Below are positions 4,275 to 33,316 of a stretch of 52,557 bases of DNA, in pieces (the first letter of the stretch is position 1; the number at the start of each line of letters is the position of its first letter). The DNA comes from Gemmatimonadota bacterium (GTDB lineage: Bacteria > Gemmatimonadota > Gemmatimonadetes > Longimicrobiales > Gaopeijiaceae), in NCBI GenBank assembly GCA_003248075.1, contig QJYK01000041.1, positions 1 to 52,557 of the forward strand, in the 5' to 3' direction. The notes beneath the pieces were generated by a model that saw only the letters and a list, made by a program, of their open reading frames with translations, had not been told where the DNA came from and searched no databases. The position numbers were made by a program, and so were the translations under genes.

Positions 4275-4703
4275 ATGGCGAAACCGAGCACCCTGGATCG
4301 ATACCTCGCGACGGCGCGCTCGACGCTGCAGAGGCTGGAGCCTGCGGAGGCCCATGCTGCGACCCTTCAGGGTGCGCTTCTCGTCGACATCCGACCGGAG
4401 TTCCAGCGTCGTCGTGACGGAGAGGTTCCCGGGGCGATCATCGTCGAGCGCAACCACCTCGAGTGGCGACTTCACCCGGATAGCCCCGCCCGCATTCCGG
4501 AAGCGGCCGGCGGGGACATTAGGTGGATCGTGCTCTGTGACGAAGGCTATGCCTCGTCCCTGGCGGCGGCCGCTCTGCAGGCGCTCGGATTGCATCGCGC
4601 CACCGACGTGATCGGCGGGCTTCAGGCGTGGCGGGACGCCGGCATGCCCGTCGGGGTACCGGGACGGGTGAGTGAGCCCCGTCCGGCTCCCGAGACTCGA
4701 TAG
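4275..4703 (+). CDS. Single-domain rhodanese-like protein
   Basis: The 142-residue protein starts at ATG 4275 behind GGAGGAAAG. The rhodanese fold is visible as LLVDIRPEFQRRRDGEVPGA (start of domain), then the active-site loop LCDEGYASSLAA with the catalytic Cys followed by E, G and S, and a closing VIGGLQAWRDAGMPV. Rhodaneses move a sulfane sulfur through a Cys persulfide. The CDEGYASS loop is the version seen in many actinobacterial and Gemmatimonadota stand-alone proteins. About 80 bp downstream follows a methyltransferase in the same direction, possibly cotranscribed. Confidence 0.88.
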   Translation: MAKPSTLDRYLATARSTLQRLEPAEAHAATLQGALLVDIRPEFQRRRDGEVPGAIIVERNHLEWRLHPDSPARIPEAAGGDIRWIVLCDEGYASSLAAAALQALGLHRATDVIGGLQAWRDAGMPVGVPGRVSEPRPAPETR

Positions 4704-4782
4704 AACCGGAAAGCGCTCGGCTCGGTGCGTCGCCGTCGGCGCACGCGAGGGCCGTGCGGAGCCGGACGGAGGGAGATGGAGC

Positions 4783-5412
4783 ATGGGACTGTACCGAAGG
4801 TATCTGCTCCCCCGGATCGTCCACCTCACCTGTAGCGCGAAGCCGAATATGCGGCAGCGTGGGAAGCTGGTGCCATTGGCGAAGGGTAGGGTGCTCGAGG
4901 TCGGAATCGGCTCGGGACTGAACCTACCCTTCTACGACGCGCGCAGGGTCACCGGGCTATGGGGCCTGGATCCGTCGCGAGAGTTGACGGCGATGGCCTC
5001 GGAGGCCGCCGAGGCGGCTCCGTTCGAGGTCGAGCTCGTTCTTGCCGGTGCGGAAGAGATCCCGCTCGACAGCAACAGCTTCGACACGGTCCTTCTCACC
5101 TACACCCTGTGCACGATTCCCGACGCCGAGCCCGCGCTGCGCGAGATGGCTCGTGTCCTGAAGCCGGATGGTGCCCTCCTCTTCTGTGAGCACGGGGCGG
5201 CACCGGATGCCGACGTGCGCCGCTGGCAGGACCGGCTCGACCCCGTGTGGCGGCGCCTGGGCGGGGGTTGCCATCTGAATCGGGACATCCCCGGCCTCAT
5301 CCGGCACGGCGGCTTCGAGATCACCGGGATGGAGACCATGTACCTTCCCGGCTGGCGTCCGGCCAGCTTCAACTACTGGGGCCGCGCTACCGCGTCTCCA
5401 GCGGGAGCCTGA
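4783..5412 (+). CDS. Class I SAM-dependent methyltransferase (METTL7/UbiE-like)
   Basis: The 209-residue protein starts at ATG 4783 after GGAGGGAGATGGAGC. Motif I is VLEVGIGSGLNLPFY, the acidic ribose-binding position is GLDPSRE, and motif IV/V reads FDTVLLTYTLCTIPDAEPALREMARVLKPDGALLFCEHG. The tail GGGCHLNRDIPGLIRHGGFEI is the signature of methyltransferases near the METTL7 group. The substrate is unknown. The stop is followed after one base by the TTG of a short-chain reductase, so the two are almost certainly translated from one message. Confidence 0.85.
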   Translation: MGLYRRYLLPRIVHLTCSAKPNMRQRGKLVPLAKGRVLEVGIGSGLNLPFYDARRVTGLWGLDPSRELTAMASEAAEAAPFEVELVLAGAEEIPLDSNSFDTVLLTYTLCTIPDAEPALREMARVLKPDGALLFCEHGAAPDADVRRWQDRLDPVWRRLGGGCHLNRDIPGLIRHGGFEITGMETMYLPGWRPASFNYWGRATASPAGA

Positions 5413-26461: not shown

Positions 26462-28054
26462 GTGGGAAAGGCGCATACATCGGGAGAACTCCCCATTTTG
26501 ACCTCCCCCCTTCGACTCGGTGAGCTCGTAGCCACGCTGGCCCTGGCGCAGGACAACGCCTTTGGCCAGCCCCTCGAGTCCCAGCTCCGGTCGTGCCTTC
26601 TCGCGACGTGGATGTGCCAGGCCGCCGGGTTCCCCGACGAGGTGCAGGAGACTGCGTACTGGGTGGCGTTGCTCCGATACATCGGGTGCACCGGCCACGC
26701 CCACGAGGTGGCAACGGTCTTCGGCGACGAGATCGCGATTCGAGCCCAGACGCTGGTGCACGATGCCGCGAATCCCGCCGAGGTCATGCGCGACGTGATG
26801 GCGTTCGCGACGGCCGGGCGACCGCCGGAAGAGGCGGACCAGATCGTGCAGCTGATCCAGCAGACTGCTCAGCAGTGGGCCGTGCACAACTTCGCGTCGG
26901 GTTGCGAAGTGGCCGACATGCTCGTGCATCGACTCCACTTCGGCCTGGGCGTCCGCGACGCGCTCCGGTTCACGTTCGAGCGCTGGAACGGGAACGGATA
27001 TCCTGCCCACGTCGGTGGGGAGGCGATCCCCCTGCCGATGCGGATCGTTCACGTGAGCCACGACATGGAGGCGATCGGGCGCCTCTTCTCTCCCGGGAAG
27101 GCGCTGGAAGCCGCTCGTGACCGTCGTGACCGAACCTACGATCCGGCACTGGCGGACCTATTCCTCGAGCACGGTGCCGGCTGGTTCGAGCGCCTCGACG
27201 CGACCGAGCCGTGGGACTCGGTGCTGGAGCTGGAACCCGAGCCGCATCGCACGCTCGAGGGATCGGAGCTCGACGAGGCCCTCGGTGTGGCCGCGGACTT
27301 CATCGACCTGAAGTCACCCTTCATGTCGGGACACAGTCGTCGCTGCGCGCAGCTCGTGGGGGACGCGGCCCGGCTGCTCGAGCTCGACGACCAGGCGCTG
27401 GCCATGCTCCGCAGGGCCGCCCTCCTGCACGACTTCGGGACGACCGGTGTGCCGAACTCGATCTGGGACAAACCCGGTTCGCTCACGAGGGCCGAGTTCG
27501 ACCGCGTCGAGCTGCACCCCATGCTGACCGAGCAGATGCTGAGGCGCTCTCCCGCCCTGTCTGCCCTGAACCCGGTCGCTTGTGCGCACCACGAGAAGAG
27601 CGACGGGTCCGGCTACCACAAGCGCCTCCGTGCCGACTCGGTGGATCCGTCCGCATGTGTCCTGGCCGCGGTGGAGATCTACGTTGGGATGACCACTGAT
27701 CGGGCGGACCGAGACGCCCTTTCCCCTGCACACGCGGCGGAGGAGCTTCGTCGCCTGGCTTCACGTGGCGTCACCGATCCGCGGGCGACCCGGGCCGTGC
27801 TGGTGGCTGCGGGGCACGGAGAGCCGAGAACACGCACGGTGAAGCGCGCGAAGCTCCCGGGTGGGCTGACGCGCCGAGAGGCTGACGTTCTCCGCCTCGC
27901 GGCGCGAGGCCTCACGACGCAGCAGATCGCGGATCGGCTCTACATCTCGACAAAGACCGCAGACCATCACATTCAGCACATCTATCGGAAGATCGGCGTA
28001 TCGACGCGAGCCGCGGCCGCGCTCTGGGCCACGCAGCACATGGCCGTCGCCTGA
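26462..28054 (+). CDS. HD-GYP-like phosphohydrolase domain fused to LuxR-type HTH
   Basis: This 530-residue protein starts at GTG 26462 behind GAAGGAAGG. Its N-terminal half is a degenerate HD-GYP-like region (RWNGNGYP at about 175-181, followed by RIVHVSHDMEAI). The second half is better conserved: GHSRRCAQLVG (H291), LLHDFG (H323-D324) and HHEKSDGSGY (376-385), where the P of GYP is H. Residues 465-525 form a LuxR/GerE DNA-binding domain (LTRREADVLRLAARGLTTQQ...STKTADHHIQHIYRKIGVS). It could sense or hydrolyse a phosphorylated nucleotide and control transcription. The likely partner is the divergent AmiC-like protein; this is inference. Confidence 0.85.
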   Translation: MGKAHTSGELPILTSPLRLGELVATLALAQDNAFGQPLESQLRSCLLATWMCQAAGFPDEVQETAYWVALLRYIGCTGHAHEVATVFGDEIAIRAQTLVHDAANPAEVMRDVMAFATAGRPPEEADQIVQLIQQTAQQWAVHNFASGCEVADMLVHRLHFGLGVRDALRFTFERWNGNGYPAHVGGEAIPLPMRIVHVSHDMEAIGRLFSPGKALEAARDRRDRTYDPALADLFLEHGAGWFERLDATEPWDSVLELEPEPHRTLEGSELDEALGVAADFIDLKSPFMSGHSRRCAQLVGDAARLLELDDQALAMLRRAALLHDFGTTGVPNSIWDKPGSLTRAEFDRVELHPMLTEQMLRRSPALSALNPVACAHHEKSDGSGYHKRLRADSVDPSACVLAAVEIYVGMTTDRADRDALSPAHAAEELRRLASRGVTDPRATRAVLVAAGHGEPRTRTVKRAKLPGGLTRREADVLRLAARGLTTQQIADRLYISTKTADHHIQHIYRKIGVSTRAAAALWATQHMAVA

Positions 28055-31598: not shown

Positions 31599-32432
31599 TC
31601 ATGGGCTCGAGTCCCCGGAGAACACCCCGTCCGAGGCCATGCGAAGGGCCTCGAACAGCTCCTCGGCGCTCGCGCCAAGGTGAAACGCGGCGACCGCCAC
31701 GGGCCTCATCAGTCCCACGAGCTCGCTCAGCCTGTCGGCCGCGCTCCTCGTGTCCGAACGGGGCGGAGCCGCAACACGGGTCCCCGCTGCCCCGGCGGTC
31801 AGCACGATGCCCTCGGCCTCGAGCTCCCGGTATGCACGCGCCACGGTGCCGGGGGCGAGCCCCAGGCGCTCGGCCAGGACGCGAATCGGCGAGAGTCGGT
31901 CGCCGGGCACGAGAACGCCGGACGCGACGGCGTCCCGAATACAGTGCGCGATCTGGTCGTAGTACGTGAGACCAGACGTGTCCGAGACCTGGATGTACTC
32001 CAGGGCATCCACCCGTTGGTCCGGGGCATGCGCCTCCGTTGCGAAGGCAGGCTCCAGGCCCGCGTCCCGGAACACCCTCGCCGAGCTTTCCGCTCCGAGC
32101 CGGGCGGTGCGGAGCCCGTCGACGAGGTCGCCGAGGACCACCGAGGCTCTCCCCTTTCCGGCGGCCGCTTCCATCGCGGCTTCCAGGACCCTCTTCGCCT
32201 CACCTGTGTAGCGGACCTGCCGGCCCTGGTCCGCCCGGGGCTCGGACACGGAGGCCAGCGTGGCGCGAAGGGTCGCGATGTCGACCTCACGAGGCAGCTC
32301 GTCCGGGAACGCCTTCGCGATTCCGAATACCAGGTGTTCCGGTCCGACGAGCTCGTGCCGGAGCTCGAGCGCGACATCCATGCCGGCGGCGAGGGCAGAC
32401 CGGACCTCTCGCTCGAATCGCATCGGCACCAT
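31599..32432 (-). CDS. GntR/YtrA-type regulator with N-terminal Clp-N domain
   Basis: This 277-residue protein starts at ATG 32432 behind GAGGAGG. Residues 5-130 form a double Clp N-terminal (Clp_N) repeat: FEREVRSALAAGMDVALELR, HELVGPEHLVFGIAKAFPDEL, YTGEAKRVLEAAMEAAAGKG and VVLGDLVDGLRTARLGAESS. Residues 156-222 form a GntR winged helix of the YtrA type (LTYYDQIAHCIRDAVASGVL, then PIRVLAERLGLAPGTVARAY). A ~55-residue helical tail typical of YtrA regulators follows. Clp_N domains normally bind adaptors or unfolded-protein cargo of ClpA/ClpC, so this regulator may read protein-quality signals or be handed to Clp; that is inference. It is divergent from a HAD hydrolase, with a palindrome between them. 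Confidence 0.85.
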   Translation of the reverse strand: MVPMRFEREVRSALAAGMDVALELRHELVGPEHLVFGIAKAFPDELPREVDIATLRATLASVSEPRADQGRQVRYTGEAKRVLEAAMEAAAGKGRASVVLGDLVDGLRTARLGAESSARVFRDAGLEPAFATEAHAPDQRVDALEYIQVSDTSGLTYYDQIAHCIRDAVASGVLVPGDRLSPIRVLAERLGLAPGTVARAYRELEAEGIVLTAGAAGTRVAAPPRSDTRSAADRLSELVGLMRPVAVAAFHLGASAEELFEALRMASDGVFSGDSSP

Positions 32433-32489
32433 GGCGGGCCTCCTCGTTTGTATCTTTGCAGGCGATGCATGCTATAACTGATTGTATTA

Positions 32490-32502
32490 GTACTGATAGT
32501 AC
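32490..32502. promoter_or_regulatory. Candidate YtrA/GntR operator between Clp-N/GntR and HAD genes
   Basis: GTACT-GAT-AGTAC is an inverted repeat with 5-bp arms and a 3-base spacer inside an AT-rich patch (about 32475-32505) of an otherwise GC-rich intergenic region of 149 bp. On the minus strand a TACAAT-like -10 lies just downstream. YtrA-type regulators bind short palindromes of this kind upstream of their own gene. Binding is not shown. Confidence 0.45.
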
Positions 32503-32581
32503 ATAAACCCCGAGGAAGCAAGACCGTCGGCGGCCGTCGGCGGTCGATCCCCCGAGTCCCGGGTGAGCCGAGAGGATGGCC

Positions 32582-33316
32582 ATGGCGCGAGGCCCGATCG
32601 AAGCGGTCACGATCGACTTCTACAACACCCTTGTCTTCCATCGCCAAGGCCAGGGCCGAGGCGCGGCGATCGTCGACTACCTGAAGGAGAACGGGCTCGA
32701 GCACGCACCGTGGGAGCACTCGGTGCTCTACGAAGTGTTCGAGGATCATGAGCGGCGTTATCCTGCGTCCGCGCCTCCGGAGGTGAAGTCCGCGTACCAT
32801 CGGCATCTCGCCGGGCGGCTCTTCGACCGATTGCGGGTCCGCGTCACGGCGACCGAGCTGAGCCGCCATGCTCCGGATCTCTGGCGGATCCTGGGTCCGT
32901 CCTGCTTCGGGGTGTTCGCCGACGCCTTCGAGACCCTGGGCGCGCTCAGAACGGCGGGTTACCCGATCGCGTTGGTCTCGAACTGGCAATCCGGGGTACG
33001 ACACTTCTGCGACGAGCTGGGACTGCTGCCCCTGGTCGACCATGTGCTCGGGTCCGCGGACGTCGGCTTTGCGAAGCCGGACCCGCGCATCTTCCACGCG
33101 GCCTCCGACCGGCTCGGGGTTCCCCCCGAAAGGGTGCTCCACATCGGCGACAGCTTTGCGGACGACTACGACGGCGCGAGGGCCGCGGGCTTCGTCCCGG
33201 TCCATCTCGTCCGGGAGCCGGGAGCAGCGACCGATGCCGCCAGGGTGGTGCGGCGTCTGAGCGAGGTGCCCGCGGTCGTCCAAGGGATCTCGGACGCATC
33301 CGGCGCGGCGGAGTAG
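32582..33316 (+). CDS. HAD-family hydrolase (haloacid-dehalogenase-like)
   Basis: From ATG 32582, with GAGAGG six to seven bases upstream (an ATG six bases earlier abuts it and is less likely), the protein has 244 residues. Motif I is D12-F-Y-N-T-L: the nucleophile Asp is present, but the +2 residue is Tyr, as in haloacid dehalogenases, not the acid Asp of phosphatases. Motif II is LVSNWQSG, motif III is FAKPDPRIF and motif IV is IGDSFADDYDGA. The cap lies between motifs I and II. It could be a dehalogenase-like enzyme or a HAD-IA hydrolase of unknown substrate. It is divergent from the Clp-N/GntR regulator. Confidence 0.85.
   Translation: MARGPIEAVTIDFYNTLVFHRQGQGRGAAIVDYLKENGLEHAPWEHSVLYEVFEDHERRYPASAPPEVKSAYHRHLAGRLFDRLRVRVTATELSRHAPDLWRILGPSCFGVFADAFETLGALRTAGYPIALVSNWQSGVRHFCDELGLLPLVDHVLGSADVGFAKPDPRIFHAASDRLGVPPERVLHIGDSFADDYDGARAAGFVPVHLVREPGAATDAARVVRRLSEVPAVVQGISDASGAAE

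Follow-up and report, generated by a model that had tools for sequence, protein, structure and literature searches.

The window analysed here, a 52,557-nucleotide stretch of Gemmatimonadota DNA, carries on its minus strand a gene encoding a 277-residue protein in which a ClpC N-domain (Clp_N) is fused to a YtrA-type GntR regulator. The gene, defined from its open reading frame, domain searches and a structural model, shares an intergenic region with a divergent HAD-family hydrolase gene. A genome pattern search places a predicted operator in that region, next to a second, weaker candidate. The features are as follows:

31599 to 32432, minus strand: Clp_N-GntR fusion regulator gene (277 aa)
32025 to 32429, minus strand: Clp_N (ClpC N-domain) part, two repeats, residues about 2-136
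31611 to 31998, minus strand: YtrA-type GntR part, residues about 145-274, with a winged helix (157-220) and C-terminal helices (231-251 and 256-267)
32483 to 32503, minus strand: predicted operator O1, TGTACTA-TCAGTAC-TAATACA (TGTATTAGTACTGATAGTACA on the plus strand)
32449 to 32469, minus strand: possible weak operator O2, TGCATCG-CCTGCAA-AGATACA, with three mismatches, 34 bp from O1
32576 to 33316, plus strand: divergent HAD-family hydrolase gene, not a conserved partner

Fold and distribution of the fusion regulator

The original prediction of a YtrA-type GntR regulator bearing Clp_N repeats is borne out by sequence searches, the structural model and the relatives of the protein. Pfam recognizes GntR (PF00392) at residues 158-220 of the window copy (E=9.8e-12, 44.8 bits against a cut-off of 27), but the Clp_N match (PF02861) covers residues 20-40 only and falls under the cut-off (E=0.0073). 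Taken literally, the HMM check that had been proposed for Clp_N in residues 5-130 thus gives a borderline result for the window copy. The Clp_N assignment is nevertheless secure. The N-terminal domain (NTD) of Bacillus subtilis ClpC aligns with residues 5-126 in phmmer (E=1e-4), and among the 19 full-length sequences that we aligned (33-72% identical to the reference row) Pfam finds GntR in all and Clp_N in 18 (best E=3.2e-33), with two repeats in the relative whose domain match was displayed.

The AlphaFold model of the window protein, computed from a 20-row alignment, has a mean pLDDT of 86 and was used instead of a poorer model from a 4-row alignment (pLDDT of 69). In this model, the Clp_N fold appears intact, with residues 2-136 superposing onto ClpC NTD crystal structures with Z scores of 16-18, while residues 142-274 match the YtrA-type structures 4ham (Z of 15.3) and 6sbs (YtrA, Z of 14.9). 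The mutual orientation of the two halves is unreliable (pTM of 0.52, with low confidence at residues 132-139). The winged helix-turn-helix, above the Pfam cut-off, is followed by a short C-terminal part made of two helices, as in the YtrA subfamily, rather than by a FadR, HutC or MocR effector domain. The protein consists of the Clp_N and GntR parts only and has no AAA+ ATPase modules, and is therefore not a ClpC/Hsp100 chaperone.

Each half thus resembles a known protein family and departs from it. As in YtrA-subfamily regulators (4ham, 6sbs), a winged helix and a two-helix C-terminal part are combined with a likely dyad operator at the regulator's own promoter. Unlike in these proteins, there is an additional ClpC N-domain of ~140 residues at the N-terminus and no transporter operon alongside. 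The Clp_N half shares the fold and two-repeat layout of ClpC NTDs (2y1q, 5hbn, and ClpC1 with cyclomarin, rufomycin or ecumicin), and the identity between the Clp_N part of a relative and a ClpC NTD reaches 78% within the same genome. In contrast to ClpC NTDs, it stands apart from any AAA+ module, being attached to a DNA-binding protein instead, and it has often lost the pArg1 glutamate.

The fusion has a patchy distribution. Among the 395 genomes sampled from the phylum, 27 gave matches at E<=1e-15. The long fusion form is present in 20 of these, including the window's genome and one genome (G287) with a shortened, degenerate Clp_N part, and the remaining seven matches cover the GntR half only. 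A genome of the same genus (G323) has no match. When the genomes of 84,980 species were scanned and the best 80 of 318 matches considered, full-length relatives occurred only in records named Gemmatimonadetes, Gemmatimonadota, Gemmatimonadales or Longimicrobium-type, the other matches covering the GntR part only, although the scan patterns were derived from the GntR half and rare exceptions are possible. Spread on plasmids was considered and rejected, as every plasmid record falls short of 80% query coverage and the listed matches are mainly to the GntR half. The original prediction named no characterized example, and we likewise found no description of a Clp_N-GntR protein in the openly available literature, which leaves most subscription journals outside our coverage.

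Several related architectures were also seen. A Longimicrobiaceae copy of the fusion (L065, 4716-6227) is apparently frameshifted, by pseudogenization or assembly error. G312 has, directly upstream of its Clp_N-GntR gene and on the same strand, a separate ORF of 172 aa that encodes Clp_N only (L043, about 4405-4920 on the minus strand); its product might be a free decoy or resemble an adaptor. Another protein of ~230 aa (L173, G215:C76) combines Clp_N with what looks by eye like a TPR-like C-terminal part, and has no AAA+ module. The window itself encodes a different fusion at 26462-28054 on the plus strand, an HD_5 (HD-GYP-like) domain joined to a C-terminal LuxR-type GerE helix-turn-helix.

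Putative operators and the likely regulon

A palindromic dyad resembling TGTRYCA-N7-TGRYACA (7-N7-7) lies upstream of the regulator in every promoter examined, and a second dyad is found 29-40 bp away in nearly all relatives. In most of them, a -35 box (TTGACA) falls within the right half of the upstream dyad, and the second dyad coincides in part with the -10 region. For each promoter, hardly any resampled sequence matches the score of the best site (p<=0.007). YtrA regulators bind a palindromic operator at their own promoter, and the conserved dyads are candidates for such sites. In the window, the distance between O2 and O1 fits the family spacing, and a slightly wider pattern (TGTAYYA-N7-TRRTACA) has a single match in the entire 5.64-Mb genome, which is O1. 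The palindrome GTACT-GAT-AGTAC (GTACTGATAGTAC), previously proposed as a target of the regulator, is real and likely to belong to an operator, but it is only the inner part of this longer dyad. At its promoter, the window copy has a strong site, a weak site and no clear -35 element, and a search of its intergenic region revealed no consensus sigma-70 promoter.

The sites appear to be confined to the regulator itself. In the 19 genomes searched, the dyad has 18 exact matches (in 15 genomes), all in the regulator's own promoter, against three matches for a reversed control pattern across all 19, although so strict a pattern may overlook degenerate sites upstream of other genes. A wider regulon defined by the exact pattern was therefore rejected, there being no exact matches elsewhere in the searched genomes. 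The mcsB-clpC loci contain no dyad site with fewer than three mismatches, and neither there nor among the exact matches in the 19 genomes did we find a proteostasis gene with an operator. Only close relatives share gene families in the vicinity of the regulator. A transporter operon, the usual partner of YtrA regulators, was rejected as a target since none is conserved alongside. Because the dyads are at the regulators' own promoters, exact matches occur there only and no neighbour is conserved outside close relatives, we favour self-control. These sequence data strongly indicate that the regulator represses its own gene via the dyads, and a one-gene regulon, consisting of the regulator itself, would be the simplest reading.

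Likeness of the Clp_N half to resident ClpC

Functional positions of the ClpC N-domain were taken from published work (PMC12583610, PMC10030653), and their equivalents in the regulators were assigned via shared motifs, a mapping that is our own. In the alignment, the K85 equivalent is a Lys in 17 of the 19 regulators and an Arg in two, the F80 equivalent is always aromatic (16 Tyr, 3 Trp), and the E89 equivalent is retained in 13. Of the two pArg glutamates, the pArg2 one (E32) is retained in 16 regulators. The pArg1 one (E106 in B. subtilis ClpC), which is the more important pArg site for ClpC activation (PMC12583610), is retained in 11. The window copy has kept the groove motif Y-T-x-x-A-K-x-V-L-E (residues 75-84) and E32, and has lost E106 in its second repeat. 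This pattern leans towards groove binding, even if the same residues may be structural. The position equivalent to F2 of Mycobacterium tuberculosis ClpC1, critical for cyclomarin, is variable among the regulators, and cyclomarin itself may therefore not be the ligand.

How closely the Clp_N half resembles the ClpC of its own genome varies widely. In three regulators of family f4, the NTD is 69-78% identical to that of the same-genome ClpC, and the others range down to 23%, the window copy being very diverged at 28%. At variable positions, regulators resemble their own ClpC more than other ClpCs (p=2.5e-4), a signal that is driven by f4 and is insignificant within families f1-f3 (p=0.23). In phylogenetic trees, some f4 regulators join f4 ClpCs on a starred branch. 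This grouping hints that the NTD might have been captured repeatedly, while AU tests do not reject a single origin of all regulators (p=0.14, or 0.064 when the longest rows are removed), so that one regulator clade also fits. The function of the window copy may have drifted, considering its diverged Clp_N, weak O2 and lack of a TTGACA box.

A possible sensor and sponge for ClpC ligands

The best experimental precedent is ClpC2 of mycobacteria. This Clp_N protein is an autorepressor whose operators span the -35 and -10 elements of the promoter that drives it; cyclomarin A releases ClpC2, which then sequesters the compound, acting as a sponge (PMC10030653). Like ClpC2, the fusion regulator is a stand-alone partial ClpC homologue, with a ClpC-NTD-like domain and no ATPase, and in most relatives its putative operators cover the -35 and -10 of its own promoter. 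However, ClpC2 has its own N-terminal dimerization region, its C-terminal Clp_N is thought to contact DNA itself, and its operator is CGTCAAC-N5-GTTGACG, whereas the fusion has an N-terminal Clp_N, a separate C-terminal GntR winged helix and a different operator. Since domain order, DNA-binding module and operator all differ, the fusion is not a ClpC2 family member, but it may work in a similar way. Ligand binding has been demonstrated for ClpC2 alone, and the fusion is likened to it from sequence.

On this analogy, we propose, at about even confidence, that the fusion is a one-component autorepressor in which a copy of the ClpC docking domain serves as sensor, reporting and sequestering a ClpC ligand. 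The YtrA-type half, presumably as a dimer, would bind TGTRYCA-N7-TGRYACA (usually two copies, over -35 and -10) and repress its own gene. The Clp_N half would mimic the ClpC N-domain and bind a ligand otherwise occupying ClpC, which would weaken DNA binding and derepress the gene, and the accumulating protein would both report and sequester the ligand. The ClpC2 precedent favours a groove-binding ligand as input. Most likely, this would be a molecule that fits into the central hydrophobic groove, for instance a peptide natural product directed at ClpC.

The main rival, which we judge unlikely and which takes up the original idea of protein-quality signals or ClpC adaptors as input, is that the protein senses proteostasis: the Clp_N half would bind ClpC substrates that are unfolded or carry pArg tags, or else an adaptor of ClpC, and repression would report the ClpC-ClpP load. 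Of the 20 regulator-bearing genomes, 18 have a gene for an McsB-type arginine kinase, adjoining clpC where examined (the window's genome included), so pArg tagging probably exists in these organisms. This reading is also consistent with the frequent retention of E32 and with the mild heat induction of ClpC2 (PMC10030653). However, the pArg1 glutamate is often missing, as in the window copy, and the operator is found at no proteostasis gene. McsB itself is uninformative, and we rejected a specific link to the regulator, because McsB-type genes are near-universal (195 of 200 sampled phylum genomes) while the regulator occurs in ~5%, and one genome (G199) has the regulator with no McsB detected. 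Arginine-phosphate tagging is instead a probable trait of the phylum. Improbable in our view is a repressor controlled by degradation, with Clp_N as a docking tag that lets ClpC or an adaptor capture the repressor for destruction under stress. ClpC NTDs do bind adaptors and partners such as MecA and YjbA, which might form a bridge to ClpC, but Clp_N is a receptor for adaptors rather than a known substrate tag, and single-gene control would give such a switch little output.

It is similarly improbable that the protein is a local regulator of the divergent HAD gene with a vestigial Clp_N. The position of O1 between the two genes, 73 bp ahead of the start of the HAD gene, and the strong divergence of the window copy's Clp_N would fit, but the modelled Clp_N fold seems intact and the operator is retained at the regulator's promoter whatever the neighbour. 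Moreover, the HAD protein has no match in the neighbourhoods of the 19 relatives and its gene is present in only 2 of 58 genomes of the family. In G323, where no regulator was detected, a homologue 52% identical has a different upstream gene. The earlier suggestion that the HAD gene is a target thus fares poorly: it is probably not a conserved one, with local co-control possible in the window's genome.

Returning to the autorepressor with a ClpC-like sensor, a more tentative extension, to which we give somewhat less than even credence, is that of an integrated decoy. The docking domain of the resident ClpC would have been captured or refreshed more than once on a self-repressor, so that an agent attacking ClpC induces its own sponge, a strategy that would have evolved independently of ClpC2. 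ClpC N-domains are the targets of the natural antibiotics cyclomarin, rufomycin, ecumicin and lassomycin. The occurrence of McsB across the phylum (G000:C26, L153 and others) raises the possibility that arginine phosphorylation of proteins reaches far outside the Gram-positives. If our reading of the fusion is true, a Clp_N autorepressor would have been built independently in a second phylum, which would point to the sensing and sponging of ClpC-directed agents as a recurrent strategy, and these regulators would be ready-made transcriptional biosensors for new ClpC ligands.
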